Part shown: piece after piece, positions 1,871 through 36,540 of the stretch
Layout: every line of letters begins with the position of its first letter
Position numbering within the stretch: the stretch's first letter is position 1
Source: Bacteroidia bacterium
GTDB taxonomy: Bacteria > Bacteroidota > Bacteroidia > Cytophagales > Cyclobacteriaceae
Length of the DNA: 37,722 nt
Assembly (NCBI GenBank): GCA_030426345.1
Contig: JAUHYU010000049.1
Span: forward strand, 1-37,722
Direction: 5' to 3'
Notes under the pieces: model-generated
The model's input: only the letters and a program-made list of their open reading frames with translations
Database searches by the model: none
Told to the model about the DNA's origin: nothing
Made by a program: the position numbers and the translations under genes

Positions 1871-3052
1871 GTGAAAAAGCCCTGTATTGTACTTCTTATA
1901 CTTCTATCAGGTTCATTGATTGGGACGGCTCAAAAAGCCTTTAAAATCCATGAATCCTTTATATTCCCGTTTCAGTCGGAACATGTGCATGGCAGCAGTT
2001 TGGTGCTGTTGCCCAATGGGGATAAGTTGGCTGCTTGGTTTCAAGGAAGTGGGGAGCGCAAGTCGGATGACGTACGGATCATGGGGGCTAGGTTGAAAAA
2101 AGGAGCGAAATCATGGACTGCTCCTTTTCTAATGGCAGATACCAAAGGTTTGCCGGATTGCAACCCCGTGTTGTTTATGAATCAAACCAACAAACTTTTT
2201 TTGGTATGGATTGCTGTGCAGGCCAACCGTTGGGAAAATTCAATTTTGATTTTTAAAACATCTGAAGATTATAATACCGACGGTGCTCCAGTTTGGAAAT
2301 GGCAGGATAATATTTTGCTAAAACCTGATGATACTTTTGCAGAGGAGGTAAAAAATAAGTTTAAAGATTTGCCACCAAACCATGCCGGATGGGCAGAATA
2401 TGCCCCTTCTTATGATAATATGATCATAGAAGCCAGCAAAGACCCACTAAAGCGGAGCATTGGCTGGATGACGCGCATCAAGCCATTGGTCATGGAAAAT
2501 GGAAGGATTTTGCTGCCGCTGTATTCCGATGGGTTGAATATGTCGCTCGTGGCGATTTCCGATGATGATGGTACAACTTGGGAACCAAGTCTACCGATAG
2601 TTGGGCGAGGATCGATTCAGCCGGCATTGGCCCAAAAGGAAAATGGGGATATCGTTGCGCTGATGAGGGACAGTGGCGATGCACCAAGCCGGGTTCACAA
2701 AAGTGTTTCTAAAGATTATGGAAAATCATGGAGTGCAACAGCAAAAACTGATATCCCTAATACAGCAAGTGTGGAATTGCTGAAGTTAAACGATGGAAAA
2801 TTCGCCTTTTTTGGTAATGATATTGTCGATGGTAGGTACCGCCTCAGCTTATTTATTTCTGAAGACGAAGGAGAAACCTGGAAGTGGAACGTCCAGATAG
2901 AAGACGATGAAACTAAAACAGGCAGCTTTTCCTACCCCAGCATGAACCAGGATGCCAAGGGCCTACTACACTTGACATACTCCTACAGTCTTGGAAAGGG
3001 TAAAAAATCCATCAAATATGTAGTGGTGGATACTAAAAGGATCATAAAATAA
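1871..3052 (+). CDS. Secreted BNR/Asp-box beta-propeller (sialidase-like) protein
   Basis: A 393-residue protein with an N-terminal signal peptide (hydrophobic residues 5-20, ending at TAQ). The GTG start is supported because the signal peptide begins exactly there, 8 bases after the upstream GH92 stop. Three Asp boxes of the S-x-D-x-G-x-x-W type lie at residues 230-237, 280-287 and 330-337, evenly spaced as in a six-bladed propeller. The family is generally annotated as sialidase or neuraminidase-like (BNR_2). However, the fold is shared with other glycoside hydrolases and some polysaccharide lyases, so sialic acid should not be assumed as the substrate. The coupling to GH92 suggests it removes a cap or side chain from a mannose-containing glycan. 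An antisense copy of the over-represented CATGGATTTT word overlaps codons just after the signal peptide. Confidence 0.85.
   Translation: MKKPCIVLLILLSGSLIGTAQKAFKIHESFIFPFQSEHVHGSSLVLLPNGDKLAAWFQGSGERKSDDVRIMGARLKKGAKSWTAPFLMADTKGLPDCNPVLFMNQTNKLFLVWIAVQANRWENSILIFKTSEDYNTDGAPVWKWQDNILLKPDDTFAEEVKNKFKDLPPNHAGWAEYAPSYDNMIIEASKDPLKRSIGWMTRIKPLVMENGRILLPLYSDGLNMSLVAISDDDGTTWEPSLPIVGRGSIQPALAQKENGDIVALMRDSGDAPSRVHKSVSKDYGKSWSATAKTDIPNTASVELLKLNDGKFAFFGNDIVDGRYRLSLFISEDEGETWKWNVQIEDDETKTGSFSYPSMNQDAKGLLHLTYSYSLGKGKKSIKYVVVDTKRIIK
1932..1954 (-). repeat. Copy of TTCATGGATTTTnnnGGCTTTTT word (inside CDS)
   Basis: On the minus strand this reads TTCATGGATTTTAAAGGC followed by TTTTT. It differs by one base from the copy at 17319-17341 and by one from that at 36518-36540. 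It lies in the coding sequence of the BNR protein at codons 21-29. Confidence 0.6.
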
Positions 3053-3083
3053 ATAATATCCGTGATTGGAATCCCCAACTCAC

Positions 3084-4256
3084 CTATCGTAAGTTGGCAA
3101 GCATGAATTTTTTCACATTACCACCCATTATGGCCTCGATTTCATTTTTGGTAAATCCTTGATGGATCATTTCTTCTACCAACACAGGTAATCCGGTTAC
3201 ATCAAAAGGGGCAGTCATGCTACCGTCATAATCTGATCCCAGAGCGATACACTGTACTCCGGCAATAGACTTGATATATTTCATTGCATCAACTATTCCT
3301 TTGGTCAGCGGAGCTTTCACAGCGCCTTTGAAGTAAGCGACGCCAATCAGGCCTCCAGTTGCTGCGATCTTTAGAACATGTTCATCTGATAAATTTCTGG
3401 GGCTGTCATTCGTCCCTTTCACACCAGTATGGGAAACAATAACCGGGGATTGTGTTTGAGCTAATATATCGTCAATCATTTGTGGCGAAGTATGCGCTAA
3501 ATCTATAATGATGCCCAATTGATTCATTCGGTCAATCACCTGACTGCCAAAATCCGTAAGTCCTTCCTTAGAAATTCCATGTGCTGATCCACCAAGTTCA
3601 TTGTCAAAAAAATGGGTTGGTCCAAGCATCCTCACGCCTTCATCATACAACTTGTCCAAGTTGTTGATTTCTCCTTCTAGGCAATGGGCACCTTCAATTC
3701 CCAGAAACCCACCCACAACCTTTTTGTTGGTTTTACGTCGGTTCAGAAGTGTTTTAAAATCACCTTTGGATGCTACAGCGACAAAATCATCATTATAATC
3801 CTTTGCAAATCCATGAAGTTTTCGACTTTGATATACTGCTCTTTCGTATAAACTAAACCAATTGGATATTGGCCTCGCCTGAAAAAAATTAAGCATCGTG
3901 ATGTTGTCGAAACCATCACCACTATTTTTTGAGAAGTTCTGCCCTGATGGCGATTTGGTAACAATCGTAAATGCTTGCAAAGCCATATTTGCTTCTTGCA
4001 TTCTAGGAAAATCCACATGTCCCAATTCATTTCTTTTAGTCAAATCACGACTCCAAAGTAAAGCGTCACAGTGCAGGTCAGCGATGAAATCCAGAGAATT
4101 ATATAGATCTTGAGCCTGCTTGGAAACCTTATAAGGAGGAGGGGTTATCGTCACATTGTGCTCACGGTCCAGCATGTCGGGAACTACTGAAACACAAATT
4201 GCATAAATTACAATGAGAGCTACCGAATTAGCAATTAACCATTTGATTGCGTTCAT
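3084..4256 (-). CDS. Membrane dipeptidase, peptidase family M19
   Basis: A 390-residue zinc dipeptidase of the renal/membrane dipeptidase family, which hydrolyses dipeptides and tolerates D-residues at the C-terminal position. The expected metal ligands are visible: H62 and D64 in DLHCD, E188 in GIEGAH, H255 in DLAHTS and H276 in VSHTG. The later GSDYDG segment is also typical. One hydrophobic segment (about residues 7-25) should anchor it facing the periplasm. It is the last gene of the minus-strand cluster, 9 bases after the BNR gene stop, and converges on the 1871-3052 gene with a 31-base gap. M19 enzymes are common near Bacteroidota sugar clusters. A role in turnover of peptides from glycoproteins or peptidoglycan is possible but not shown. 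Confidence 0.92.
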   Translation of the reverse strand: MNAIKWLIANSVALIVIYAICVSVVPDMLDREHNVTITPPPYKVSKQAQDLYNSLDFIADLHCDALLWSRDLTKRNELGHVDFPRMQEANMALQAFTIVTKSPSGQNFSKNSGDGFDNITMLNFFQARPISNWFSLYERAVYQSRKLHGFAKDYNDDFVAVASKGDFKTLLNRRKTNKKVVGGFLGIEGAHCLEGEINNLDKLYDEGVRMLGPTHFFDNELGGSAHGISKEGLTDFGSQVIDRMNQLGIIIDLAHTSPQMIDDILAQTQSPVIVSHTGVKGTNDSPRNLSDEHVLKIAATGGLIGVAYFKGAVKAPLTKGIVDAMKYIKSIAGVQCIALGSDYDGSMTAPFDVTGLPVLVEEMIHQGFTKNEIEAIMGGNVKKFMLANLR

Positions 4257-4265
4257 ATTAGGTAA

Positions 4266-5426
4266 TTATTCTACTCCGCCTTGGCTAACAACCTTTCTTT
4301 GATTGAACACCTCAATGATTTTCTCGTCATATCGGTCGGAGAAGATATCCTCTTCGGTAAAATTAGTAGTTAGAATATTCTGACTTCCGGTTCTGTCAAA
4401 ATCATAAATAATATGGATGCTGCCATCACTCGTTTGTTGCCCGTCCGGATAGGAGACTCTGGATCGTTGATCCAGTAAAAGCCCTTTTGACCATGAATGG
4501 CCATCATCTTTCGAAATAAAAGCCATCAAATTGGAACGTCCTGTTCTCACTTCAATGGGGCCATGCTTAACCAACAGCAGGTTGCCAGATGCCAATTTAC
4601 TTAAAAAAATCCTCGCACTTGGATGTTCTATTTTAGAAGGAACTAAGTCACTCCAGGATTTGCCTCTGTCTTTGGAAGTACTTTCCCCTATTCCGTAATT
4701 AGTTCGAACGAGCATCCACAACGATCCATCTTTTCTTTCTACAATCATTTGTTCGTCATAGCTTCTTACATCCTTTGGCACATTTACGGCTCCGTGCTCT
4801 TTCCAGGATTTTCCTTTATTGGTTGACACGATAACTTTGGCACTATAATCAGTTAATCGCCATGTCGAGGCTGGCAAGACCCATTCCCCTGTCGAAAGAA
4901 CCAATGGTTTGCACATCATCACGCCATCAGTCAATCTTTTGGGTTTGGACCATTTAGGATTTTCATTGTCCGGATCTTTTGTTGTCATAGCCCAAACACC
5001 TGCTACAGTCCCGTTATGCTTTATTGCTTGAGCCCAAAATACCCAAAGGTTTCCATCCGGTGCCATCCAAACTTCGGGGTCATAAGCCCTCACAGGTCCA
5101 GCAGCATCTGGGTCAACGACAAGAATTTCTTTCCATGTATCTCCCTGATCTCCCGATGTGGCTACTACGACATAGTTGTTGTTGTCTTCATCTGGGGTGA
5201 TTCCCGTATACCAGACTGCCCAGATTCTTCCTTCATTGCTTATGGCTATACTTGGGATTCCAGTAAATTTCCGGTCTTTCTTGGAATATCCATCTGAGCT
5301 TCCCTCTACTTGAATAATTTTGGGGGGCTCTAAAAATGCTTTGTTGTCTTGAGCTGAGGAGGTATTACTTAAAAAGCTTATACATACAAATATGAAGAGT
5401 AGTGATACTGAATTTTTGATTTTCAT
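4266..5426 (-). CDS. Secreted BNR/Asp-box beta-propeller (sialidase-like) protein
   Basis: A 386-residue protein with a signal peptide (hydrophobic residues 8-20, cleavage near SSAQ). Asp boxes are seen at residues 91-98 (SGDQGDTW), 201-208 (STNKGKSW), 251-258 (SKDRGKSW) and 305-312 (SKDDGHSW), as in six-bladed sialidase-type propellers. The motif RSYDEQMIVERKDGSLWMLV is typical of the large BNR_2 group, whose members are mostly uncharacterised. It is not a close copy of the 1871-3052 protein. It lies between a HAD phosphatase (127 bases upstream) and the M19 dipeptidase (9 bases downstream) in a sulfatase-containing cluster. A role as an exo-acting glycosidase or lyase on a sulfated glycan is plausible. 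True sialidase activity is unproven. Confidence 0.85.
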   Translation of the reverse strand: MKIKNSVSLLFIFVCISFLSNTSSAQDNKAFLEPPKIIQVEGSSDGYSKKDRKFTGIPSIAISNEGRIWAVWYTGITPDEDNNNYVVVATSGDQGDTWKEILVVDPDAAGPVRAYDPEVWMAPDGNLWVFWAQAIKHNGTVAGVWAMTTKDPDNENPKWSKPKRLTDGVMMCKPLVLSTGEWVLPASTWRLTDYSAKVIVSTNKGKSWKEHGAVNVPKDVRSYDEQMIVERKDGSLWMLVRTNYGIGESTSKDRGKSWSDLVPSKIEHPSARIFLSKLASGNLLLVKHGPIEVRTGRSNLMAFISKDDGHSWSKGLLLDQRSRVSYPDGQQTSDGSIHIIYDFDRTGSQNILTTNFTEEDIFSDRYDEKIIEVFNQRKVVSQGGVE

Positions 5427-5553
5427 GGAATATAATGATTGATATTTAAGATGAGTTTTAAATTTACAAAGTAATAATCGTGATTGAAATTTTAAGACAA
5501 TTCAAAGTTAAATTTAGAACGATTCAAATCTATTATGGCTTTCCTTCATAGGT

Positions 5554-6195
5554 TTAGTTTTCAGTCCACTCGTCATTATAATCTGATATGACTCGAAGAG
5601 CCGAACTTAAATCATGGTTCGCATTGAATTCATGCCTAAATGCCACAATATCACACCCCGCTCTTTTTGCTGCAATTAAACCCACTTCCGAATCCTCAAA
5701 AACCAAAACCTCTGAACTCGGTAAATCTAATTTCTTTAGAGCCAGTAAATAAGCTTCCGGATCGGGTTTGTGCTTTGTTACATTTTCATTGGTGATGACA
5801 CAATCAAAAAAAGATTTTAATTCCAACTGAGTAAGCACCTGGTCAACCATCCAATCAGACGCTGAACTGACGACTCCAATCTTTTTCCCTCTTTCCTTAA
5901 GAACTGACAAAAACTCAAAAACATATGGATTAGGTTTTAATTCATGAAAAAGCAGTTCTTGATAGGCCTTTTTAAATACAGAATTAAACTTGTCAAAATC
6001 AGGCACAATCTGAGATTTCGTAAAAAAATAATCAGTTACCTGTTCCCAACTTTCACCCATCACTGCCTTGTAAGTTTTTACTTCTACCATCCCTCCAAAA
6101 TGACTACATGCTTTCACAAGAGCCTGCCCCTTTAGCTTTTCTGAAGCTACAAGAGTTCCATCCATGTCGAACAAATATGCCGAATAGTTCTTCAT
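5554..6195 (-). CDS. HAD-superfamily (subfamily IA) sugar-phosphatase/phosphoglucomutase-like hydrolase
   Basis: A 213-residue cytoplasmic HAD hydrolase with all four motifs. Motif I is DMDGT (nucleophile D10, acid/base D12), motif II includes S110, motif III is K143 in KHKPDP, and motif IV is E167/D168 in VFEDSEVG. The helical cap between residues about 15 and 85 puts it in the beta-phosphoglucomutase / 2-deoxyglucose-6-phosphatase-like group. It probably acts on a small phosphorylated sugar, but the family is too broad to name the substrate. It lies 70 bases after the stop of the first sulfatase-family gene upstream, in the same orientation, so it is likely part of the sulfatase operon and would process a released monosaccharide after phosphorylation. 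Confidence 0.88.
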   Translation of the reverse strand: MKNYSAYLFDMDGTLVASEKLKGQALVKACSHFGGMVEVKTYKAVMGESWEQVTDYFFTKSQIVPDFDKFNSVFKKAYQELLFHELKPNPYVFEFLSVLKERGKKIGVVSSASDWMVDQVLTQLELKSFFDCVITNENVTKHKPDPEAYLLALKKLDLPSSEVLVFEDSEVGLIAAKRAGCDIVAFRHEFNANHDLSSALRVISDYNDEWTEN

Positions 6196-6265
6196 TCTTT
6201 TTTATCCAATTGTTTATGGAAAATGCCCTCTTTTTATATTCCAGAGCCTTTTACTGAAGACTAAA

Positions 6266-7669
6266 CTAATCTTCCTTCTTTATATAATCAGGATTTAATG
6301 TGTGGCGAATGGTTTTGGAATCATCCAGCCATATTTCAATTTTATTAGAAAGCTCTTCAACCTTTTTTGGCATTTTTTCTGATAGATCGTTCTCTTCACC
6401 AATATCTTCATCAAGGTTGTAAAGCTCCACTTTCTCAGGGTCATAAAATTTGATGAGTTTGTATGCCCCTGATCTAACGGCCACTCCCGGAATTTTTGCC
6501 TGAGGACTATAATGAGGGTAATACCAAAATAGATCTTGTGAACTAATTTCCTGACTAAAATCAGGAACTAACGATCGCCCGTCAATAGGATCATCAATTT
6601 TCACATTTGATCCAGAGATATCGACAATAGTAGAAAAGATATCCTGCGAAATCGTTGGATTTTCTGATATTGAGCCATCTTTTATATGTCCAGGCCATCG
6701 CACGATAAATGGAACTCGGATTCCTCCTTCGTAGAGATAGCCTTTGCCTGCTCTGAAAGGGCTATTGTCAGATGTCCCAGCTACAGCCCCATTGTCAGAA
6801 GCAAAAATGACTACTGTATTTTTATCTAGGCCGAGCTCTTCGATTTTAGCTAATAATCGACCAATATTAGTGTCAACACTCTCAACCATTGCTGCATATA
6901 CCGGATCTATTTTAGTGTCTTTCAATATCATTTTATATTTATCAATCAGAGGCGCAGGAGCTTCAAGCGGAGTGTGAACAGCATAGTGAGATAGGTAAAT
7001 AAGAAATGGTCTATCCTTGTTATCCTCCATAAAATGAATTGCCTCGTCCGTTAATCGGTCCGTAAGGTATTCTCCATCCTGACCACCACTTAAAGTCGGG
7101 ATGGAGGGGTTCCAATCTTTATCTGATTTGTATGGATAAAAATGGCTTGGGGGGCTACCATGTGTCCATCCACCAATGTTGATGTCAAATCCCTGATCCG
7201 TTGGGAAATAACCTTCATGGCCTACGTGCCATTTTCCAATACTGATAGATTTATACCCAAGAGGTTTGAGAACTTCAGGGATCAATATCTCTTCATGAGG
7301 CAGATACATCAAATCATCGGGAGGGATTATTCTCCCATGCTCAGGGTAACGGTGCTTTCCAATGGCGGTGATGTGACCTGTAAATCTAACTCTGGCGGTA
7401 CTTTTTCCCGTGAGCAATGCTGCTCGCGACGGGGAACAGACCGGAGCGGCAGAATATGCATTTGTCCATCGCATGCCTTCATCTGCGAGCTGGTCTATAT
7501 TGGGCGTTTCAATATACTGTTGTCCATAACAGCCCAAATCTTGTGATCCGAGATCATCAATTAATATGATGAGAAAATTAGGCTTTTGAACCACCTTACT
7601 GGTGCATCCTATAGCCAACAGACACAATACTGTAATAGCGATTTTTGTTTTTAACAACCCGAAATTCAT
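6266..7669 (-). CDS. Lipoprotein sulfatase (S1 family, CSPSR active site)
   Basis: A 467-residue arylsulfatase-fold enzyme that hydrolyses sulfate esters on carbohydrates. The N-terminus ends in the lipobox LAIGC, so C22 is lipidated and the enzyme should be attached to an outer or periplasmic membrane face. The active site reads CSPSR with C78, which must be converted to formylglycine by a maturase not present in this window. Metal-binding residues include D38/D39 in LIDDLG and the SDNG motif in the central part, plus GKWHVG. The sequence resembles the carbohydrate sulfatases of the S1_16-like type, but subfamily assignment needs SulfAtlas. It lies 40 bases after the second sulfatase gene, so the pair is very likely cotranscribed. 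Confidence 0.95.
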   Translation of the reverse strand: MNFGLLKTKIAITVLCLLAIGCTSKVVQKPNFLIILIDDLGSQDLGCYGQQYIETPNIDQLADEGMRWTNAYSAAPVCSPSRAALLTGKSTARVRFTGHITAIGKHRYPEHGRIIPPDDLMYLPHEEILIPEVLKPLGYKSISIGKWHVGHEGYFPTDQGFDINIGGWTHGSPPSHFYPYKSDKDWNPSIPTLSGGQDGEYLTDRLTDEAIHFMEDNKDRPFLIYLSHYAVHTPLEAPAPLIDKYKMILKDTKIDPVYAAMVESVDTNIGRLLAKIEELGLDKNTVVIFASDNGAVAGTSDNSPFRAGKGYLYEGGIRVPFIVRWPGHIKDGSISENPTISQDIFSTIVDISGSNVKIDDPIDGRSLVPDFSQEISSQDLFWYYPHYSPQAKIPGVAVRSGAYKLIKFYDPEKVELYNLDEDIGEENDLSEKMPKKVEELSNKIEIWLDDSKTIRHTLNPDYIKKED

Positions 7670-7709
7670 ATTCTATGCATTTTTTTCATTCTTAAGTTTG
7701 ACTAGCTGT

Positions 7710-9188
7710 TTACAGATTGTCGGAGGCTTTCGATAACAAGGGATCGTTAATCTCTCTCATTTTATCAAAGAGCTTTTTGGTTAATTTTTCTCTATTCATA
7801 ATCACATCAGGTGAATTTGAACTGTAAAGATTGTTATGTTCTTTGGGGTCATTTTTTAAATCATAAAACTCATGAAGTTTATTGCCAGAAAAATCCATGA
7901 CAACTTTCCATTCTCTTGTTCTATAAGTTCTCAAATCAATATATTCAGCATAAAGATCATTGTTCCACTCTATATTTTCTTCTCCCAAAAGTGGTAAGAA
8001 ACTTTCTCCTCGATAAATAACATTATCAATTGTTTTATTCAATCTAGCCATGTCGAGAAGCGTTGGAAAGAAATCCGGAAAAGATACCGTTTCATCTATT
8101 CTGGTGTTTTCATCTATTACTCCCGGCCACCTAATAATACAAGGCACACGAATGCTATTGTCATAAAGATTGGGCCTCGCATTACCATACACTCCAGATG
8201 GGTCTTGGCCATTTTTTGTAAGCCACCGACCATTTCCTTTATGCCATAATCCATTGTGTCCGAGATTGTATCCATGGTCTGAGGTAAATATTACAATTGT
8301 ATTGTCAACGAGATTGAGTTCTTCCAATAGTTCCATTAATCTTCCCATATTCCTATCAAGACTATGTACACTGGAATAATATTCTCTGGCCATTCTCACC
8401 GTTAGAGGCACATCAAGATTAGGGAAATTGGGTTCAGGTAATACGATGTCTGAATTTTCCCATCGCTTCAAATCTACGTCTTTCATGGGTAGCCATGATC
8501 GCCCCTTATATGTAGGTTCCATTCCTTTGGGAAAATCAGTATTTGCATGTGGCGCCCAAAAATGGAGAGACATGAGCAGTGGTTTTTTGGTTTTCAATGG
8601 ATTGAATTCCTTGATATAGCTCATTGCATAACCTACCAATAGATCAGGAGTATAGGCACCTTCTGCAACTTCCCACTTTCCCTCTACCTGAATTCTGGGT
8701 GACATGGAACGCAATCCACCATGTGGAAATCCTGTGAAGCGATCATATCCTCTTTGCGTTGGTAGATATTCTGATGAGTTCTCACCAAGATGCCATTTCC
8801 CAACCATAACCGTAGAATATCCTGCATCTTGAAAGATTTCCGGAAAAAATTTCAGGGACAAATCCACACCAGTTGAATCACCTTCCGGGATGAAGTCTGT
8901 CACACCTGTTTCGCTAGCATATCGGCCTGTCATTAAAGAAGCACGAGCAGGACTGCAGACTGCACTTGAAGCAAAGCAGTTGTTGAATACTGCTCCTGAT
9001 CTCCCAATTTTATCGAGTTCTGGTGTGAATGTATTGGGATCATTATTGATACTCAATGTCCATGGCCCCATGTCATCTGCCACGACAAATATTATGTTAG
9101 GACGAACCGTGTCGTCCGTCTTCTGTGCTCGATCAGAACAACTTACAAAGAGGATATTGAGAATGATAAAAAGAAGTAGATTATACAT
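7710..9188 (-). CDS. Lipoprotein sulfatase (S1 family, CSPAR active site)
   Basis: A 492-residue S1 sulfatase, first gene of the minus-strand sulfatase-HAD-BNR-dipeptidase cluster. The lipobox LFVSC gives lipidated C17. C78 in CSPAR is the formylglycine precursor. VADDMG (D38/D39), GKWHLG and TSDHGYNLG are the usual metal and substrate motifs. It is clearly different from the 6266-7669 sulfatase, so the two probably remove sulfate from different positions or sugars. The upstream non-coding stretch is 357 bases and contains a terminator for fdhA, so this gene should have its own promoter. Confidence 0.95.
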   Translation of the reverse strand: MYNLLLFIILNILFVSCSDRAQKTDDTVRPNIIFVVADDMGPWTLSINNDPNTFTPELDKIGRSGAVFNNCFASSAVCSPARASLMTGRYASETGVTDFIPEGDSTGVDLSLKFFPEIFQDAGYSTVMVGKWHLGENSSEYLPTQRGYDRFTGFPHGGLRSMSPRIQVEGKWEVAEGAYTPDLLVGYAMSYIKEFNPLKTKKPLLMSLHFWAPHANTDFPKGMEPTYKGRSWLPMKDVDLKRWENSDIVLPEPNFPNLDVPLTVRMAREYYSSVHSLDRNMGRLMELLEELNLVDNTIVIFTSDHGYNLGHNGLWHKGNGRWLTKNGQDPSGVYGNARPNLYDNSIRVPCIIRWPGVIDENTRIDETVSFPDFFPTLLDMARLNKTIDNVIYRGESFLPLLGEENIEWNNDLYAEYIDLRTYRTREWKVVMDFSGNKLHEFYDLKNDPKEHNNLYSSNSPDVIMNREKLTKKLFDKMREINDPLLSKASDNL

Positions 9189-9545
9189 TTTTATCTCAGC
9201 TGAATTTAATTACAAATCCCGTGAATTTATAAAATTTTAATTTGTTTAAGGAACCATTTACTTTTTGCAGGTAACGAAAGCTACATAATTAAAAGATGGA
9301 ATTAGTATCAAAAGATAGTAGGGGACTCTTGGTGGCATGTCATTTTGTTATACGGGGAAACCATATTTCTAATATAGTATTGATAATACTCTTAAAGCGT
9401 ATAATAGGCCATGACTTCAGCAATTATTAAGATATAGTTGCTTGCATTTTTTGATGCTTTTAGAAAACAAAAGGGAGACTATTGAAATCTCCTTTTTGTT
9501 CTTGAACAGTGTTGTGAAAGTTCTATTACTTCCTAAATAGATCGG
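9189..9545. other. Non-coding gap upstream of sulfatase cluster
   Basis: No credible gene was found in these 357 bases. The stretch must hold the promoter of the minus-strand sulfatase cluster, but I found no convincing TTG / TAnnTTTG pair on that strand. A perfect 6-base palindrome with a 3-base centre (AGTATTGATAATACT, 9376-9390) is a possible operator. The fdhA terminator lies at 9466-9500. Confidence 0.5.
9466..9500 (-). terminator. Intrinsic terminator after fdhA
   Basis: Two 13-base arms (9466-9478 and 9488-9500) pair with a single G-T wobble around a 9-base loop. On the minus strand the hairpin is followed by a T-rich run. It sits 45 bases beyond the fdhA stop and separates that gene from the sulfatase cluster. 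Confidence 0.8.
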
Positions 9546-10736
9546 CTAAGCCGGTACCATTCCATGTGGATCTATCACGTATTTTTTAGCCGCGCCCTTG
9601 TCAAAATCCATATAACCTTTGGGCCCTTCATCCAAGTTGATTACTTGAACATTTACCGCATCTGCTATTTTTATTTTGTCATAGAGAATCGCTTGCATCA
9701 AATCGCGGTTATACTTCATAACTGGGCACTGGCCTGTCATGAAGTGATGGGACTTCGCCCAGCCTAATCCAATGCGAATGCTTAAGTTGCCAACCTTAGC
9801 GTTTTCATCGATGCCTCCTGGGTCACCTGTCACATACAAGCCGGGGATACCAATCCCCCCTCCAGCTCGGGTCACTTCCATAGCCGCATTCAGTACAGTT
9901 GCTGGTTCTTCGGTGCCACTATCATGTCCATGACCTTTGGCTTCAAATCCCACACAATCCACAGTGCAGTCAACTTCTGGAACTCCAACTATTGCTTCTA
10001 TCTGCTCCGCCAATGTCGCATCTTTTCTTAAATCGACTGTTTCGCAACCAAAACTTTTGGCTTGTTCAAGTCTCTCTGGAATCATATCTCCTACAATGAC
10101 CACTGCTGCACCCAATAAATGACAGGAAGCCGCACATGCTAATCCGACTGGCCCTGCTCCTGCTACATAGACTATTGCTCCAGGTTTTACACCCGCAGTT
10201 ACTGCACCATGATATCCTGTCGGTAAAATATCAGACAACAAGGTCAAGTCACGTATTTTTTCCATGGCTTGGTCTTTATTAGGAAATTTCAAAAGATTAA
10301 AATCTGCATAGGGAACCATTACATATTCTGCCTGGCCTCCGATCCAACCGCCCATGTCAACATAGCCATATGCCGATCCAGGACGGGCTTCGTTCACATT
10401 TAAACAAATACCTGTTTGCTGTTCTTTGCAATTTCTACAGCGACCACATGCGATATTAAAAGGCACGGAGACAAGATCACCTACTTCCAAATATTCCACA
10501 TCTCTACCTTTTTCAAGCACTACACCTGTAATTTCGTGTCCCAAGATGAGCCCTTCAGGTGCGGTGGTTCGCCCACGGACCATGTGCTGGTCGCTACCAC
10601 ATATATTAGTTGATACAATTTTAAGAATAACACCATGATGGCATTTTCTGTCTCCGAGTGCAAGTTCGGGAAAGGCAATTTTTTGTACTTCTACTACACC
10701 TGGTTTGATGTAGGCAAGTCCTCTGTTTGAAGCCAT
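9546..10736 (-). CDS. fdhA: Glutathione-independent formaldehyde dehydrogenase (zinc MDR family)
   Basis: A 396-residue cytosolic medium-chain dehydrogenase that oxidises formaldehyde with NAD+ without glutathione. The length and residue numbering agree with the Pseudomonas putida enzyme. Catalytic zinc ligands are C46 (NICGSD), H67 (GHE) and D169, and structural zinc ligands are C97, C100, C103 and C111. The Rossmann motif is VAGAGPVG. It is a single-gene unit on the minus strand, closed by the terminator at 9466-9500 and divergent from the GH92 gene at 11161 across 424 bases. Its place among mannosidases and sulfatases suggests formaldehyde from demethylation of methylated sugars, as is known for 6-O-methylgalactose use in marine Bacteroidota. 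However, no cytochrome P450 demethylase lies in the window. Oxidation of another alcohol or aldehyde is the alternative. Confidence 0.93.
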   Translation of the reverse strand: MASNRGLAYIKPGVVEVQKIAFPELALGDRKCHHGVILKIVSTNICGSDQHMVRGRTTAPEGLILGHEITGVVLEKGRDVEYLEVGDLVSVPFNIACGRCRNCKEQQTGICLNVNEARPGSAYGYVDMGGWIGGQAEYVMVPYADFNLLKFPNKDQAMEKIRDLTLLSDILPTGYHGAVTAGVKPGAIVYVAGAGPVGLACAASCHLLGAAVVIVGDMIPERLEQAKSFGCETVDLRKDATLAEQIEAIVGVPEVDCTVDCVGFEAKGHGHDSGTEEPATVLNAAMEVTRAGGGIGIPGLYVTGDPGGIDENAKVGNLSIRIGLGWAKSHHFMTGQCPVMKYNRDLMQAILYDKIKIADAVNVQVINLDEGPKGYMDFDKGAAKKYVIDPHGMVPA

Positions 10737-11160
10737 AATTTTGGGTTTAATATTAGGTGGAAAATAGTTTAATTCTTAAATGAATTCCGGAATAGGCAAA
10801 TGTCCATTTCGCATGTCTTATCCAATATTCTTGCACTTAAATCAAAAAGCACTTCAGATAAATTGGAAATCGTTTTCCCACTGTACAACAATTCAAATAC
10901 TATCCAGCTTAAATTGTTTGTGATTTTACGCAGATCATTGCCTTGCTTTTGAAAAATTAGTGAAAAAACGGCAGATTAAAAATCAAAACCATCATTCTTT
11001 GCTGACAAATTGGTGTCGATTAAAATTATTCTATATAAAGATTGCTAGTAGAATGCGTAACCTGTAGCAAAGTGTTAATATACGTTTGGAAAAATGACAG
11101 TCCAAAATTCAGTTTCACAGAATAATTGATCAATTTTGAACTTCAATAACGAGCCGAGCT
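10737..11160. other. Divergent intergenic region between fdhA and GH92
   Basis: No gene was seen in these 424 AT-rich bases. The region must carry divergent promoters. On the plus strand TACGTTTG at 11081-11088 fits the Bacteroidota -7 element TAnnTTTG and lies 72 bases before the GH92 start, but a clear TTG at -33 is absent. No -7 match was found for the fdhA direction. Confidence 0.5.
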
Positions 11161-13404: not shown

Positions 13405-13483
13405 ATCATGGATTTGGAAGTGTTTTTATACATGATTTTCATTTATCCCCTGTATTGAGATCAACGGTGACGCATTTATGCTG

Positions 13484-13501
13484 ATTGGAAAATGTTCCAA
13501 T
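13484..13501. promoter_or_regulatory. Perfect palindrome, possible operator
   Basis: ATTGGAA-AATG-TTCCAAT is a perfect 7-base inverted repeat. It lies 13 bases upstream of the proposed -33 box of the 13575 gene, the right place for an activator or repressor site. No T run follows, so it is not a terminator. Confidence 0.4.
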
Positions 13502-13514
13502 ATGCTTTGCATGG

Positions 13515-13545
13515 TTGGGCATATCTGTATTAATTATTAGTTTAG
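13515..13545 (+). promoter_or_regulatory. Candidate Bacteroidota promoter for 13575-15630
   Basis: TTG at 13515-13517, a 20-base spacer, then TAGTTTAG at 13538-13545, which matches TAnnTTTG except at one base. The start codon follows 29 bases later. Confidence 0.4.
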
Positions 13546-13574
13546 GCTGAATTTTGAGAAACAAATAATAAACA

Positions 13575-17318: not shown

Positions 17319-17341
17319 TTCATGGATTTTAGAGGCTTTTT
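17319..17341 (+). repeat. Intergenic copy of TTCATGGATTTTnnnGGCTTTTT word
   Basis: TTCATGGATTTTAGAGGC followed by a T run, between the divergent pentapeptide and glucosaminidase genes. It matches the minus-strand copy at 1932-1954 with one mismatch over 23 bases. Confidence 0.6.
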
Positions 17342-18303: not shown

Positions 18304-18326
18304 TCCATGGATTTTAGATGGTTTTG
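18304..18326 (+). repeat. Intergenic copy of CATGGATTTT word
   Basis: TCCATGGATTTTAGATGG followed by TTTTG, 15 bases after the glucosaminidase stop. The second half has a 4-base rather than 3-base gap before GG. Confidence 0.5.
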
Positions 18327-27943: not shown

Positions 27944-28055
27944 ATAAGAGGTCTGTAAAAACCGATCTTGCACATTCTAAATTTCTGAGACGGTTATTAT
28001 TTCATTAACTATTCGTCCTTTTATTTGGCTATAAATAAGTTGACTGTTGCGTCCT

Positions 28056-29798
28056 ATGTCCATATTTAAGAAGTTATATTTTTTTAACCAAGATATACTA
28101 CCAAAATATAGTAACGAGCAAAAGCGGGTTCAAAGGTTGGAAATCATTAACCATTTCTTGGTTATAGCCCTACTTGTATTTTTCATATATGATATTGTGT
28201 TAGCCGTTTTGAAATATCAAGCGTTTACGTTTGAAAAATTTCCGGTTCTTATATTTTGGTTGCTTAGCCTGCTTTCCTTTTACCTGACCAAAAAAGGTAA
28301 ATACCTTCCTGCAAAGCTTATTGTTATATTTACCCCGCTTTTGTTTATCTCTGTTTATTCGCTTACCGGATATGTAATAGGAGAGCACTTTTTGTGGCAG
28401 CCAATTATGGTCTTGGGTATGTCCATTATCCCTTTTTTGATTTTGGATGTACAAAAGGAAAGAGTTTGGTTATTGATTGCTTTCCTTTCTTTCTTAATAT
28501 ATATTATTTTTCATGATAAACTCTTGTTGTATGGATCCGAAGAGGCATTTATTCCCGTGTTTGATAAATTAAATACTACTCCTCTTATTTATAGCATGGT
28601 AAGAATTATCGTGTTTTTTTTCCTGACTTCCATTATTTATTATTCTGTTAGGCTCAATGACAATCAACAATTGCTTAATGAAATGATTAATAGATCGCTA
28701 ATTAAAACTAGCAGCTATCTGGAGACGGTAAATTCTGAATTAGAAGCACATAGGAATGCAACGAATAATTCTGCATCACTGCTGATAATGGATGACCATC
28801 GAGATATTATTTCTGTCAACGATAGTTTTCTTTCTGTATCGGGTTTTACGATTGAAGAATTGAAAGGAATTAACTTACTGAAATTGAGTGCTGAATACAA
28901 CGATGAAAACATCTCAAATTCCATAGAAGAGGTCTTGGATACTGGAGAGGTTTGGAGGGGTGAATTGAAGATCAAGAAAAAAAACAATGAATTTTTTTGG
29001 ATGCAAGTTGCGATTTCCCCAATCAAAGATTCCGAAAAAAAGCAAAAGGGTTTTCTCTCTATCATGTTTGATATTTCCAGATTGAAAGACGATGAGGAAC
29101 GGCTTGAAAAATTGAATTTTGAGAAGGACAGGATTTTGTATGCTGTAGCTCATGATTTGAAAAACCCGTTGCTGAATTTCAAATCTCTGCTCGGTATGCT
29201 AAAATCAGGGGCATTAAGTGATAAGGATGAAGAAGAAGTTTTTCGTTTGATGACTAGGGATTGTGAACACGCTACCAATTTGATTGAAGAATTGCTGGAA
29301 ATTGGAAGGTTTGAAGATGAAGGTTTTATTCTTCAGAAGGCCCCTTCAGACTTGAATGCTTTTTTGGAAAAATCACTGAGCCAATTCAAGGAGATTGCTG
29401 ACAAAAAGAATATCTCGCTAACCAAGACTTGGGAAAACAACCTAAAACCTATCAAAATCCATGAAAAGGAATTTGACCATGTTGTTTACAACCTAATAAG
29501 TAATGCTATTAAATTTACACCTGCCGGTGGTGAAATTGAAGTTAAGACGAAAATCGTATCAGACGATAAAGTATCTATAGAAGTGTCCGACACAGGAATC
29601 GGAATATCACAAAAATTGCTACCGATTATTTTTGATAAATTTTCCAAAGCCGGAAGGATGGGGATAGAAGGGGAAAAATCCACAGGTTTGGGTATGTGGA
29701 TCGTAAAGCATATAGTGCAACTACATGACGGCGAGATAGCTGTAAGAAGCCAAGTAGACAAAGGCACAACATTCACCATCTTGTTGCCGATAGCTTAG
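28056..29798 (+). CDS. Membrane PAS sensor histidine kinase
   Basis: A 580-residue kinase. Five or six transmembrane helices (about residues 30-195) are followed by a PAS domain (about 235-340; ISVNDSFLSVSGFTIEELKG), a HisKA dimerisation domain with phospho-acceptor H366 (YAVAHDLKNPL), and a HATPase_c domain. The latter has N box NLISNAIKFTP, G1 DTGIGI and G2 STGLGMWIVKHI. The frame is open to a TTG at 28047, but the ATG at 28056 is preferred. No response regulator lies beside it, so it is an orphan kinase in this window. Its place right after the secreted glycan operon suggests, but does not prove, a role in sensing. Confidence 0.92.
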   Translation: MSIFKKLYFFNQDILPKYSNEQKRVQRLEIINHFLVIALLVFFIYDIVLAVLKYQAFTFEKFPVLIFWLLSLLSFYLTKKGKYLPAKLIVIFTPLLFISVYSLTGYVIGEHFLWQPIMVLGMSIIPFLILDVQKERVWLLIAFLSFLIYIIFHDKLLLYGSEEAFIPVFDKLNTTPLIYSMVRIIVFFFLTSIIYYSVRLNDNQQLLNEMINRSLIKTSSYLETVNSELEAHRNATNNSASLLIMDDHRDIISVNDSFLSVSGFTIEELKGINLLKLSAEYNDENISNSIEEVLDTGEVWRGELKIKKKNNEFFWMQVAISPIKDSEKKQKGFLSIMFDISRLKDDEERLEKLNFEKDRILYAVAHDLKNPLLNFKSLLGMLKSGALSDKDEEEVFRLMTRDCEHATNLIEELLEIGRFEDEGFILQKAPSDLNAFLEKSLSQFKEIADKKNISLTKTWENNLKPIKIHEKEFDHVVYNLISNAIKFTPAGGEIEVKTKIVSDDKVSIEVSDTGIGISQKLLPIIFDKFSKAGRMGIEGEKSTGLGMWIVKHIVQLHDGEIAVRSQVDKGTTFTILLPIA

Positions 29799-29813
29799 GG
29801 TGACTGGCATAAG

Positions 29814-31858: not shown

Positions 31859-31880
31859 TTAATCCCCAAAAATAGAAGAC

Positions 31881-34800
31881 ATGGTTTTACGGATGTTTAA
31901 GAAGATATGGTTGCCGGCATTTACGATGATAATTGCGGGATGTAGCATCGAACTTCCGCAAGATGTCTCAGATGCATATCAGGACTTACCCGATGAGGTT
32001 AGTTTTAATATGGATGTGAAGCCAATCATTTCTGATAAATGCTACCACTGCCATGGACCTGATGTAAATACCAGAGGAGCAGAATTACGATTGGATGAAA
32101 AGGACGGGTTGTACTCCAAATCCGCCAATGGTAATTTTCCCTTTGTCCCAAAAAACTTAAACAAAAGTGAAGCCATCAATCGCATACTCAGCGATGATCC
32201 CGAATATATGATGCCACCTCCTAAATCCAACAGGGAACTTAGCAATACAGAAAAGGCGGCTTTGGTCAAGTGGGTAGAGCAAGGTGCCAAATGGAACAAA
32301 CACTGGTCATTTGTGCCATTGGCAGAAACAGAAATTCCGGAAGTAGATACCGATTGGGCCAAAGGTAATGAAATAGACCCTTTTATTTATAAAAAGCTAC
32401 AGCAAGTCGGTCTTTCACCTTCTGTACAGGCTGAGAAAAAATTGCTATTGCGCAGGGTAACTATGGATTTAACAGGCTTACCACCGACTCTGGAGGAGTT
32501 AAATGCATATATAAATGACAATTCTCCAGAAGCTTATGAAAAGGTAGTAGACAGATTGCTCAGTTCGAAAAGCTATGCCGAGCGCATGACCCTTGAATGG
32601 CTCGACCTTGCCAGATATGCCGATTCCCATGGGTTTCATTCAGACGGCCTGCGGGAAATGTGGCCTTGGCGCGATTGGGTGATCAATGCGTTTGACAATA
32701 ATATGCCTTACGACGAATTCGTGTCTGAGCAGTTGGCGGGGGATCTTATGCCAAATGCTTCCAAAGATAAAATTGTTGCCACTGCATTTAACAGAAACCA
32801 TCCGATGACTGCCGAAGGCGGGGCGATAGAAGAGGAGTTTCAGGCCGAGTATGTTTTTGATCGCACCAATACCTTTGGTACGGCTTTTTTAGGGCTTACC
32901 ATAGAATGTGCCAGGTGCCATGACCATAAGTTTGACCCAATTTCCCAAAAGGAATACTACTCGCTCACTTCTTTTTTCAACAACATAAAGGAACTGGGAA
33001 TGACAGGTGACGACGGAGACTATGGACCTTTGGTGCTTTTAAGCGATTCGGCGACGGATGAAAAAATTAAGGCTTTGGATGAGCAAATAAATGTATTGGA
33101 AAAGTCTCGTGAACTTGATGTAGCCTCTATCAATCAAATCACTGATTTTATTCATAAAAAGGGAGCAAAACCCATGACACCAATTCTCTATCATCCTTTT
33201 GACAAAACCGCGAAGGACAAAGATTCGGAATATGTGGATGGTCGTAGAAAAACAACCCTTTCGGGTGAAGTGAATTTTGTGGAAGGCATTTCTGGATTAG
33301 CTCCAAAATTTGACCATCAAGATGATGCAATTCAAATCAATGATTTTGGAAAATTTGAAAGTACAGATCAGTTTTCCATTTCACTTTGGGCCAACCCCGA
33401 ATCTCTATCAGACAAAACCAGCATCTTCATTGGCAATGCACACCAGAAAAACACCATGTTTCGGGGCTGGGATTTCTATATCGACTCGGTCGGTCACATT
33501 GCGGCAAGGTTGATCAGTGCTTTACCAAATAATTATATCCATGTGAGAACAGAGGAGAAAATTCCTGTGGGAGAATGGACGCACCTGATCTTGACCTATG
33601 ACGGTTCAGCCAAGGCCAAAGGTATCCAGTTTTATATGAATGGAAAACCATGCGAGGAACAAGTAGTATACGATCGGTTGTATAAGTCAATAATGCCCGT
33701 AAATATGGCACGAACCTTAGAAAACAGAGGGTTGAGGATGGGCAAGAGTTATCGCGCGTTTACAGGAGATAATGGGATATTTAAAGGTGTAATGGATGAA
33801 TTGGCTGTCTATGATATTTCCATTCCTGAGAATCAAATCCAATCTGTTTATTCCCAATCTTCGCAGGGCAAGAAACCTATTGTTTATGACATAGAAAATG
33901 TAAAACAGAAAAGCACTTTTACAGCACTAGCAGCACTTAGAAAAGAACGCCTCAACATGGTAGATACCATTCGGGAGTTGATGGTAATGGAAGAATTGGC
34001 CGAACCAAAACCTGCATTTATTTTGAATCGAGGAGTGTATGATCAACCATTGGAACAAGTTGAAGTTGGAACACCGGAAAAAGTCATGGATTTTTCAGGC
34101 AATTTGGCTCCTAATAGGTATGGTCTGAGCCAATGGCTTTTTGATGAGCGCAACCCACTCACTGCAAGGGTAGCAGTCAACAGATATTGGTACATGATTT
34201 TTGGAAGGGGGCTCGTTAGCACGGTAAATGATTTTGGAAATCAGGGAGCACTTCCTTCCCACCCAGAACTATTGGATTGGCTGGCGAAAAATTTCATGGA
34301 TTCCGGATGGAATGTGAAGGCATTGATGCGTCTGATGGTTACAAGCAATACATACAAGCAGTCTTCAATACCAAACGAGGAAAATCTTAAAAAGGATCCT
34401 GAAAACAAATGGCTAGCACGTGGGCCGAGCTATCGCTGGCAGGCGGAATTCATCCGCGACAATGCTTTGGCAGCGAGTGATTTGCTCAACAAATCCATCG
34501 GTGGAGAAAGTTCAAAACCCTACCAGCCTGATGGACTTTGGATTGAGCTGGGAAATTTTTCTCACTTTTTGCTGCATTACGAACGGGATGAGGATTGGAG
34601 GCAATATCGTCGAAGTATGTATACCTTTATCAGGCGGACGTCGCCACCGCCATACATGACAATCTTTGATGCTCCAAACCGCGAGGTTTGTACTGTCAAG
34701 CGAGAGAGTACAAATACACCACTTCAGGCTTTGGTATTACTTAACGACCCACAATTTGTGGAAGCATCTAGAGCACTGGCTTGGAGGTTGAAAAAGGAGG

Positions 34801-35063
34801 CCGGAGAAAAATTACAAGATCAAATCCAGCTTGGGTTTCAGCTTGTTTTGACACGTGATCCTTCCAATGAGGAATTGGATATCATGGAAGATCTATATGA
34901 TTCAGAACTTGCGGCCTTTAAATCTGTTATATCATCCGCTGGGGAATTTCTTGAGGTAGGAGATTTTACCATTAAGGAAAATTATGCATTGCCGGAACTC
35001 GCTGCTTTGACAGTAGTTTCCAATACTTTATTCAATATGGATGAAGCTTATATGAAAAGATAA
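31881..35063 (+). CDS. Haem-binding lipoprotein: cytochrome c-like, DUF1549, LamG, DUF1553
   Basis: A 1060-residue lipoprotein (lipobox IIAGC). Order: a PSCyt1-type cytochrome domain with C54-x-x-C57-H58 (CYHCH) binding haem c; DUF1549 (about 150-400), where ECARCHDHKFDP adds a second CxxCH at C343-H347; an inserted LamG-like lectin domain (about 433-657); and DUF1553 (about 713-1020). The architecture is best known from Planctomycetes and also occurs in marine Bacteroidota near sulfatases and glycosidases. Reaction unknown; haem sites suggest electron transfer or oxidation at the cell surface, and the LamG domain suggests carbohydrate contact. A perfect promoter lies upstream, and the DUF1501 gene starts 11 bases after the stop. 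A short upstream extension of the signal (second ATG at 31893) is possible. Confidence 0.93.
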   Translation: MVLRMFKKIWLPAFTMIIAGCSIELPQDVSDAYQDLPDEVSFNMDVKPIISDKCYHCHGPDVNTRGAELRLDEKDGLYSKSANGNFPFVPKNLNKSEAINRILSDDPEYMMPPPKSNRELSNTEKAALVKWVEQGAKWNKHWSFVPLAETEIPEVDTDWAKGNEIDPFIYKKLQQVGLSPSVQAEKKLLLRRVTMDLTGLPPTLEELNAYINDNSPEAYEKVVDRLLSSKSYAERMTLEWLDLARYADSHGFHSDGLREMWPWRDWVINAFDNNMPYDEFVSEQLAGDLMPNASKDKIVATAFNRNHPMTAEGGAIEEEFQAEYVFDRTNTFGTAFLGLTIECARCHDHKFDPISQKEYYSLTSFFNNIKELGMTGDDGDYGPLVLLSDSATDEKIKALDEQINVLEKSRELDVASINQITDFIHKKGAKPMTPILYHPFDKTAKDKDSEYVDGRRKTTLSGEVNFVEGISGLAPKFDHQDDAIQINDFGKFESTDQFSISLWANPESLSDKTSIFIGNAHQKNTMFRGWDFYIDSVGHIAARLISALPNNYIHVRTEEKIPVGEWTHLILTYDGSAKAKGIQFYMNGKPCEEQVVYDRLYKSIMPVNMARTLENRGLRMGKSYRAFTGDNGIFKGVMDELAVYDISIPENQIQSVYSQSSQGKKPIVYDIENVKQKSTFTALAALRKERLNMVDTIRELMVMEELAEPKPAFILNRGVYDQPLEQVEVGTPEKVMDFSGNLAPNRYGLSQWLFDERNPLTARVAVNRYWYMIFGRGLVSTVNDFGNQGALPSHPELLDWLAKNFMDSGWNVKALMRLMVTSNTYKQSSIPNEENLKKDPENKWLARGPSYRWQAEFIRDNALAASDLLNKSIGGESSKPYQPDGLWIELGNFSHFLLHYERDEDWRQYRRSMYTFIRRTSPPPYMTIFDAPNREVCTVKRESTNTPLQALVLLNDPQFVEASRALAWRLKKEAGEKLQDQIQLGFQLVLTRDPSNEELDIMEDLYDSELAAFKSVISSAGEFLEVGDFTIKENYALPELAALTVVSNTLFNMDEAYMKR

Positions 35064-35074
35064 ACACTAATGAT

Positions 35075-36514
35075 ATGTGTGATCATTATAACAAAAATTA
35101 TAGCAGACGGGATTTCCTCCAACGGACATCTTTGGGGCTTGGAGCCTTGGCTCTAGGTTCTTTAATAGATCCAGCTGGACTTCAGGCCGCTGCCATGGAT
35201 CAAGGCCACATCTTAGGAAAACCGCACTTTGCGCCCAAGGCGAAACGTGTCATTTATCTATTTCAAAGTGGCGGGCCTTCTCAAATGGATTTGTTTGATT
35301 ACAAACCGCTATTGAATAAAATGAATGGGGAGGAGCTACCAGCGAGTGTACGTCAAGGGCAGCGACTTACCGGAATGACAGCCGGACAAACTTCATTTCC
35401 ATTGGCAGGGTCTATCTTTGATTTTAAACAGCATGGAAATTCCGGGGCTTGGGTCAGCGATTTAATGCCGCATACTTCCAAGATTGTGGACGATCTTTGT
35501 TTTGTACGATCCATGTACACAGATGCTATCAACCATGATCCTGCAGTCACATTCATACAAACAGGAAGCCAATTTCCCGGCAGACCTTCCATCGGTTCAT
35601 GGGTGAGTTACGGCTTAGGAAGTGACAATGAAAACTTGCCTAACTTTGTAGTGTTGGTGACTAAAGATAAACGGGGGCAGCCATTGTACAGTAGATTGTG
35701 GGGAAATGGTTTTCTACCTTCAGAGCATCAAGGGGTGCAATTTCGCGCGGGGGCCAACCCTGTACTCTATCTTTCCAATCCTCCGGGAGTCAGCTCAGAT
35801 AGCCGAAGAAATCAACTGGATCATTTAAACAGTTTGCAGGAATTAAAACACGGAGAATTTGGCGATCCGGAGATTCTGGCGCGCATGTCGCAATACGAGA
35901 TGGCATTTCGGATGCAAACTTCCGTGCCCGAAATAATGGACACCGAGGGCGAACCAGAACACATTTATGAAATGTATGGCGAAGACAGTAAAAAGCCCGG
36001 TACATACTCTGCGAATTGTCTGCTAGCAAGGAGGCTCATAGAAAAAGATGTGAAATTCGTGCAACTCTACCACCAAGGCTGGGATCACCATGGCAGCTTG
36101 CCAAGTAGCATTCGCAGACAATGCAAAGAAACTGATCAGCCCACCACTGCGCTCATCATGGACTTGAAGCAAAGAGGCTTGCTGGAAGATACACTTGTGA
36201 TTTGGGGAGGTGAATTTGGCAGAACCAATTATTCGCAGGGCACGTTATCTGAAACCAATTATGGTCGCGACCATCACCCAAAGTGCTTTACGGTGTTTAT
36301 GGCTGGGGCAGGAGTAAAAAAGGGAATGACCTTTGGGGCTACTGATGAATTCGGTTACAACATCATAGAAAATGGGGTCCATGTCCATGACTTTCAGGCC
36401 ACGATTTTGCACCTGATGGGGGTAGATCATGAAAAATTGATTTATAAATACCAGGGTAGGAGATTCAGACTGACTGATGTGCATGGCCATGTCGTTAAAG
36501 ATATTCTCGCATAG
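35075..36514 (+). CDS. DUF1501 protein with Tat signal
   Basis: A 479-residue protein of the DUF1501 family, related to the alkaline phosphatase/sulfatase-like fold. The N-terminus has the twin-arginine motif SRRDFL followed by a hydrophobic stretch, so it should be exported folded, implying a cofactor or metal. Conserved pieces include FQSGGPSQMDLFDYKP, WDHHGSLP and WGGEFGRTNYSQG with GRDHHPKCF, which contain the His/Asp residues likely to bind metal. DUF1501 is almost always paired with DUF1549/DUF1553 proteins, as here (11-base gap), so the two probably form one functional unit. The activity is not established. Confidence 0.93.
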   Translation: MCDHYNKNYSRRDFLQRTSLGLGALALGSLIDPAGLQAAAMDQGHILGKPHFAPKAKRVIYLFQSGGPSQMDLFDYKPLLNKMNGEELPASVRQGQRLTGMTAGQTSFPLAGSIFDFKQHGNSGAWVSDLMPHTSKIVDDLCFVRSMYTDAINHDPAVTFIQTGSQFPGRPSIGSWVSYGLGSDNENLPNFVVLVTKDKRGQPLYSRLWGNGFLPSEHQGVQFRAGANPVLYLSNPPGVSSDSRRNQLDHLNSLQELKHGEFGDPEILARMSQYEMAFRMQTSVPEIMDTEGEPEHIYEMYGEDSKKPGTYSANCLLARRLIEKDVKFVQLYHQGWDHHGSLPSSIRRQCKETDQPTTALIMDLKQRGLLEDTLVIWGGEFGRTNYSQGTLSETNYGRDHHPKCFTVFMAGAGVKKGMTFGATDEFGYNIIENGVHVHDFQATILHLMGVDHEKLIYKYQGRRFRLTDVHGHVVKDILA

Positions 36515-36517
36515 TAA

Positions 36518-36540
36518 TTCATGGATTTTAAGGGCTTTTT
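36518..36540 (+). repeat. Intergenic copy of TTCATGGATTTTnnnGGCTTTTT word
   Basis: TTCATGGATTTTAAGGGC followed by a T run, starting 4 bases after the DUF1501 stop. It could also help termination: AAGGGC (36530-36535) can pair with GCCCTT at 36563-36568 across a long loop, but that hairpin is weak. Confidence 0.6.

Follow-up and report, generated by a model that had tools for sequence, protein, structure and literature searches.

A candidate DNA-uptake-sequence-like self tag in a genome of the Cyclobacteriaceae (Bacteroidota)

To our knowledge, DNA uptake sequences have so far been known only in the Neisseriaceae and the Pasteurellaceae, and both of these families use a type IV pilus, with ComP or, by prediction, ComN/PpdA as the pilin receptor; we know of no description of the DNA uptake sequence (DUS) of the Neisseriaceae that includes helically phased A/T tracts. 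Here a stretch of 37,722 nucleotides from a bacterium of the Cyclobacteriaceae (Bacteroidota), referred to as the window, is analyzed for a ten-base word, CATGGATTTT, that is strongly over-represented in it. The window is the entire contig 32 of a genome, G000, of 5.12 Mb in 182 contigs with a completeness of 98.65%. Judged from the sequence, the word appears on balance to be the core of a self tag that resembles a DNA uptake sequence and would have evolved independently in the Bacteroidota.

The closest described counterpart, the uptake signal sequence (USS) of the Pasteurellaceae of the Haemophilus influenzae type, has the core AAGTGCGGT, a word unrelated to the motif here, and belongs to another phylum. 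It is described as a core with flanking AT tracts (PMC7811141), as is found here. The DUS (ATGCCGTCTGAA) is reported as a self word on the scale of about a thousand copies (PMC2346458), again as here, and its dialects between species (PMC5031613) may be likened to the varying forms of the signal in the congeners of this organism. Within the Bacteroidota, Riemerella columbina is reported to prefer its own DNA (PMC7965970); that study gives no clear uptake word, the top k-mers listed being A- or T-rich strings whose function was left open by its authors (PMC7965970). Among the matches listed from the open-licence literature, preprints not covered, none reported an uptake word in Bacteroidota by its title or the start of its abstract, and among those listed for the letter strings of the motif, none was by title a paper on the subject.

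Genome-wide, 1,474 copies of CATGGATTTT were counted in G000, 762 on the plus and 712 on the minus strand, against 14 (9 plus, 5 minus) for the reversed word used as a control. The genome is about 2.8 times larger than we take that of H. influenzae to be, so that the density is lower. The number itself is of the same order as the 1,465 core copies reported for the USS of that species (PMC7811141). The reversed word understates the natural background, because the true word is itself found 7-168 times in 147 further genomes of the family; the highest two counts, 168 and 104, both come from the same genus and the remaining counts range from 7 to 98, the highest of all being about nine-fold below G000. 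Forty stretches of G000 amounting to 1.358 Mb (27% of the genome), in which open reading frames (ORFs) of at least 300 bases served as proxies for genes without annotation, contain 430 cores, compared with 20.2, 41.6 and 73.3 expected under Markov models of order 3, 4 and 5. The density of this sample (317/Mb) exceeds that of the whole genome (288/Mb) since many of its contigs were picked on the strength of a mention in earlier listings. Some one-mismatch forms of the word are also in excess in this sample (e.g., 81 versus 19.5), others are not. Of the extended form CATGGATTTTNNNGGCTTTT, G000 holds 280 copies and each of six congeners 0-4; it is missing from 389 other genomes of the order and found once each in two of 394 other genomes of the phylum, a set overlapping the 389. 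The preliminary description of the window, made from its letters alone, had named a genome count near expectation, or copies limited to the window, as the outcomes that would speak against a signature word, and both are excluded by these counts. Nine viral contigs carry one extended copy each. For a window protein, the closest relatives bearing a name come from uncultured Bacteroidetes/Cytophagales genomes at 72-73% identity, a few records being titled as other phyla.

Alignment of the copies reveals a longer signal, TTCATGGATTTTnnnGGCTTTTT, with CATGGATTTT as its core, which is asymmetric, bipartite and more than 20 bases long. A/T maxima are located at +5..9, where they are fixed by the core, at +16..20 and at +27..31, with a weaker one at +38..40 between genes; the tracts recur at intervals of 10-11 bases and so face the same side of the helix. 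Genic copies, too, show the second and third peaks, and a GGC block is likewise seen there and not only in terminator stems; conservation fades after the phased tracts, past which no flank is shared. When a weight matrix was trained on half of the stretches, 711 sites/Mb were found in the held-out half versus 14 for the reversed matrix, and the matrix of all copies gave 790 sites at that score in the 1.358-Mb sample. Furthermore, 26 overlapping inverted pairs sharing a CATG centre (AAAATCCATGGATTTT) account for 52 of the 430 copies, 46 of these 52 halves lying between ORFs and 18 of the pairs lying at most 100 bases from the nearest stop codon. Their mean folding energy is -18.4 kcal/mol versus -5.0 kcal/mol for random intergenic 44-mers, and 18 of 26 reach a minimum free energy of -15 kcal/mol or lower versus 4.6% of the random 44-mers, a gap that partly follows from the picking of a 16-base palindrome. 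Since such a palindrome folds by itself, arm length is the better measure, and in 17 of the 26 pairs the perfect arms reach 16-28 bases, mostly with a T run at the end. Eighteen of the 26 pairs are predicted to form strong terminator-like hairpins and may act in termination; uptake sequences are reported in terminators in both uptake-sequence families (PMC13020248).

Inside the window, the 11 copies of CATGGATTTT lie exactly where the preliminary description had placed them. Its chance expectation of about 0.1 copies was too low, the computed value being 0.42, but the observed number remains far higher, and the largest count in 100 dinucleotide shuffles of the window was 3. The shorter CATGGATT, said to occur about 20 times against one or two expected, is found 21 times against 3.57 expected; TCATGGATTT and its extensions rank top among 10- to 12-mers in a k-mer scan of the window. 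As had been described, GG follows 2-4 bases after the word in 8 of 11 copies (counted from their contexts). Eight copies are in ORFs and three between them, and those host genes that could be given an identity have no relation to one another: BNR/sialidase-like, sulfatase, GH92, Gfo/Idh/MocA oxidoreductase, histidine kinase and PSCyt/DUF1553. Two of the eight motif-bearing ORFs have no Pfam family match. The copies are as follows.

1932-1954 (core 1943-1952), minus strand: full extended copy TTCATGGATTTTAAAGGCTTTTT, in the plus-strand ORF 1871-3052, near its 5' end
7879-7901 (core 7890-7899), minus strand: core with partial second block (TCTGGCAAT), in the minus-strand sulfatase ORF 7710-9188
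12172-12181, minus strand: core without GGC block, in the GH92 ORF 11161-13404
14899-14921 (core 14910-14919), minus strand: core with shifted, partial second block (ATGGCATATT), in the Gfo/Idh/MocA ORF 14644-15630
17319-17341 (core 17321-17330), plus strand: full extended copy TTCATGGATTTTAGAGGCTTTTT, between ORFs
18304-18326 (core 18306-18315), plus strand: near-full copy TCCATGGATTTTAGATGGTTTTG, intergenic, the core 16 bases past the ORF end at 18289
20435-20444, minus strand: core without GGC block, in the ORF 19974-22199; aligned to G083 and G131 with substitutions and no indel
23719-23728, minus strand: core without GGC block, in the ORF 23668-26091
29443-29465 (core 29454-29463), minus strand: core with second block GATAGGTTTTAGG, in the histidine-kinase ORF 28047-29798; aligned to G083, G131 and G150 with substitutions only
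34083-34105 (core 34085-34094), plus strand: core with partial second block (TCAGGCAATT), in the PSCyt/DUF1553 ORF 31881-35063
36518-36540 (core 36520-36529), plus strand: full extended copy TTCATGGATTTTAAGGGCTTTTT, intergenic, the core 5 bases past the DUF1501 ORF end at 36514

As for the neighboring genes, PSCyt1/PSCyt2/PSD1 (DUF1549/DUF1553) and DUF1501 genes adjoin at 31881-36514, with many diverged matches in the same genome at about 65-83% DNA identity; several of these lie on contig 152. The sulfatase gene (7710-9188) sits between two GH92 glycosidase genes (9-1862 and 11161-13404), and this part of the window is perhaps a glycan-degradation island.

In the 1.358-Mb sample, 39 of the 40 stretches hold a copy, the exception being 1.7 kb long, and the density is 7.7-fold higher between ORFs (1.43/kb) than in them (0.19/kb). 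Within ORFs, 69 sense copies stand against 10.0 (codon-phase Markov-3) or 14.6 (order 4) expected, and 157 antisense copies against 9.1 or 19.8, with all six classes of frame and orientation in excess; since the excess concerns both orientations and all phases, the pressure acts on the DNA and not on the protein. The USS is likewise reported as commoner in one orientation inside genes (PMC2346458), comparable with the 157 antisense and 69 sense copies here.

Congeners carry far fewer copies, TTCATGGATTTT being present 494 times in G000 versus 46, 40, 29, 25, 20 and 9 times in them. Closer comparison used small samples of 25-222 kb from G083, G131, G148, G149 and G150, without G151, and three G150 contigs that had been chosen for the motif were left out of the matrix, softened-matrix and T-tract tests. 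At least four T at +16..20 follow CATGGAT in 429 of 1,051 cases in G000, versus 4.2% at control positions, and the same tract is linked to CATGGAT in G150 (16/87 versus control 22/435, p 9.7e-5) and in G083 (13/68 versus 8/340, p 1.8e-6). The link is absent in 78 distant loci, mostly Bacteroidota by title (7/217 versus 28/1,085). With the core ATGGATTT it becomes weaker in G083 (p 0.013) and stronger in G150 (p 4e-8), and when the core is shortened to CATGGA, the distant set too reaches p 0.027. Neither G150 nor G083 shows enrichment of the GGC block. In each of the five congener samples, a softened matrix gave more matches than the highest of 12 column-permuted controls (G150 304/156, G083 294/153, G131 145/110, G149 40/22, G148 36/34), and 77 distant loci scanned with a matrix yielded 30 versus 24 per Mb. 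Congeners G150 and G083 appear to carry a weaker form of the signal. G150 and G148 group in an unrooted one-protein tree of six genomes (100/97) and yet differ in copies of TTCATGGATTTT, 46 versus 9 (the G148 sample being 41 kb), so that the strength of the signal seems to change fast. For other Bacteroidota, a screen of loci of about 20 kb for their own words (best 40 rows) cannot show absence, because single words of five copies score up to 19.

Several further words were encountered in the congeners. In G083, AAAAAGCACT is over-represented (9 versus 1.24 in L023-L032 and L150-L152) and may reflect a different second block, and some motif copies there have CACTTTT where GGCTTTT stands, so that a dialect is possible. 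A further dialect of G083 had been suspected from the word CTTTCGGATT, which looked enriched in L043, and was rejected, 9 of the 10 copies of the word's core sitting in a local repeat; L043 holds at 8879-9948 a local inverted-repeat family built on CTTTCGGATTTGCnATCCGAAAG and clustered within about 1 kb. The G131 sample (L033-L042) shows over-representation of CGGAGCAAATTC and ACCGGTTTCAT, perhaps another interspersed repeat.

The main rival to an uptake-like tag is a Chi-type signal for recombination or repair within the cell, which would be read by a nuclease-helicase and gained as nearby breaks are repaired better. Such a signal also predicts a word over-represented in genes and between them, made by substitution and variable between lineages, and Chi sites share with the motif the over-representation of a word. 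They are, however, short, polar and biased to the leading strand, unlike the motif here, whose length of more than 20 bases, phased A/T tracts and inverted pairs are not known as features of Chi. The polarity that Chi would show was sought within stretches, the contigs being unordered and the origin and terminus not located, and did not appear: strand bias within stretches is absent (chi2 36.0, 39 degrees of freedom, p 0.61), so little imbalance would arise in 0.1% of simulations under a 65:35 within-contig bias and in 0 of 2000 under 75:25, while a 60:40 bias is less clearly excluded (2.9%). The correlation of motif skew with gene-orientation skew per stretch is weak and not significant (rho -0.27, p 0.09). 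The Chi-like reading offered in the preliminary description is thereby weakened, strand use within contigs fitting 50:50, and we regard a recombination signal as unlikely.

Quite unlikely, too, is the binding site of an abundant chromosome-organizing or regulatory protein, spread by selection on the chromosome. Helically phased A/T tracts would suit a protein that bends DNA or binds the minor groove, and the copies are dense between genes. Nevertheless, the word is enriched in all frames inside genes, the palindromic form expected of an operator is a minority (52 of 430 copies), and the tree-grouped G148 and G150 differ in their copies of TTCATGGATTTT. Copies are spaced exponentially (Kolmogorov-Smirnov p 0.997, coefficient of variation 1.00) and counted like a Poisson process in 125 bins of 10 kb (variance/mean 1.07), without a polar pattern; a nucleoid-organizing role, also proposed earlier, gains no specific support because of this Poisson-like spread. 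An apparently random spread is reported for the USS (PMC2346458), as here.

A third explanation, in which a DNA methyltransferase maintains the word in its many copies as for the highly iterated palindrome HIP1 of cyanobacteria, is improbable. HIP1 and the alternate HIPs are, like the word here, lineage-specific and strongly over-represented, and are described as short palindromes tied to methyltransferases (PMC4390886), unlike the present signal, which is asymmetric, bipartite and more than 20 bases long. The form of the word thus differs, with 52 of 430 copies in palindromic pairs.

How the copies arose bears on the last alternative. Twenty-one alignments of copies to congeners were obtained, 18 genic (at 14 sites) and 3 intergenic. 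The core is gapless in all 18 genic alignments, two of which lack or gain one base outside the core within the 30 columns displayed, and the core is intact in one congener sequence of the 18, its identity (0.58) being not above that of the flanks (0.62). The simplest reading of these sequences is that substitution within this lineage, and not insertion, produced the aligned genic copies. Among the intergenic alignments one of three shows gaps near the core, so that intergenic copies may have been inserted. The propagation of a small repeat, mobile or terminator-like, through insertion or duplication, to which the 26 inverted pairs and the 18 hairpins of -15 kcal/mol or lower would lend themselves, is nevertheless highly improbable, since 378 of 430 copies lie outside overlapping pairs, the genic alignments are gapless across the core and no flank is shared beyond the phased tracts.

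An uptake-like tag would further call for a route by which DNA enters the cell. ComEC was found in 28 of 29 genomes searched, including G000 (contig C26), DprA in all seven genomes of the genus, including G000 (contig C119), and helix-hairpin-helix (HHH_3) proteins are encoded in G000, one of them with three matches in a 290-residue frame. Riemerella, which also belongs to the Bacteroidota, is reported to require for transformation ComEC, DprA, ComF and RecA together with four proteins unlike known machinery, one with a helix-hairpin-helix domain (PMC8459023); DUF5689 is part of one protein essential there (PMC8459023). By analogy, a pilus-free route of transformation is therefore plausible in the phylum and could exist in this genus. 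A receptor other than a type IV pilin is probable, as distinct from the DUS, whose receptor is the minor type IV pilin ComP (PMC12616744).

Several points weigh against an uptake tag. No match to PF00437, the PilB/PilT/GspE ATPase family, rose above the cut-off in G000 (19.1 bits versus 24.9), in difference from the pilus-based systems of both DUS and USS; the search works, 3 of 29 genomes matching at 416-418 bits, and the pilus test rests on this ATPase, minor pilins and secretins not having been searched for. DUF5689 (PF18942), a feature of the Riemerella system, is absent from all seven genomes of the genus, and it was rejected as a lead to the receptor. ComEC and DprA discriminate little because both are widespread, and natural competence and uptake are putative for this organism. 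The strong form of the signal is confined to one genome, and no linked T tract was found in G131 (1/33), G148 (1/12) or G149 (0/7), the last two samples being very small. The alignments to congeners are 57-72% identical and not all certainly orthologous, and only 14 genic sites could be aligned. The bias toward gene ends is weak here (sense p 0.05, antisense p 0.57). Copy number does not correlate with GC content in 263 windows of 5 kb, and gaps longer than 10 kb are slightly in excess (6 versus 2.5 expected). A gene-end bias is reported for the Pasteurellaceae (PMC2346458).

Depletion of the motif in foreign DNA was considered and set aside, there being no correlation of copies with GC and only a slight excess of long gaps. 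Two low-GC gaps hold genes for glycosyltransferases and for secreted proteins with a Por secretion tail, which is only suggestive. On contig 26 (L164) of G000, 10.6 kb at 3887-14464, directly after comEC, have 34.7% GC and no motif match, and encode Por secretion tail and PA14/cohesin-like proteins.

Taken together, the likeness to DNA uptake sequences that the preliminary description had proposed is well supported by enrichment, lack of polarity, terminator-like hairpins, phased A/T tracts and the absence of any sign of insertion at the alignable genic sites, and is opposed by a pilus ATPase family below the cut-off. In most of the features tested the anatomy agrees with that of uptake sequences, and of the USS in particular, whereas the word, the phylum and the likely machinery differ. 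The test for the pilus feature was negative and uptake is a prediction, so that the motif is classed as working like an uptake sequence and not as a member of DUS or USS. We propose that a surface receptor would bind DNA carrying TTCATGGATTTT and then the second T tract one helical turn on, so that bound fragments would cross the outer membrane more often, and that single strands would pass via ComEC, be protected by DprA and then recombine. As uptake would be biased, better-matching alleles would be copied back into the population more often, and matches would build up by point substitution wherever the sequence tolerates them, most densely between genes, and within genes in all frames and both orientations at random spacing. 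The overlapping inverted pairs after genes would then have been co-opted as two-way transcription terminators. A fuller account, to which we give an even chance, would hold that this is a third independent origin of self-recognizing uptake and the first in Bacteroidota, through a receptor other than a type IV pilin, with the core and phased T tract weakly present in two congeners and the GGC block added as the signal strengthened here.

The Bacteroidota are reported to be capable of transformation with machinery unlike the known kind (PMC8459023). If the proposal is true, it would suggest that uptake drive evolves repeatedly into the same design of a core, phased A/T tracts and terminator pairs, and the gradient within one genus would offer a chance to follow the rise or decay of such a signal. 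The motif would then also be a bait for the receptor by which Bacteroidota pick DNA at their surface.

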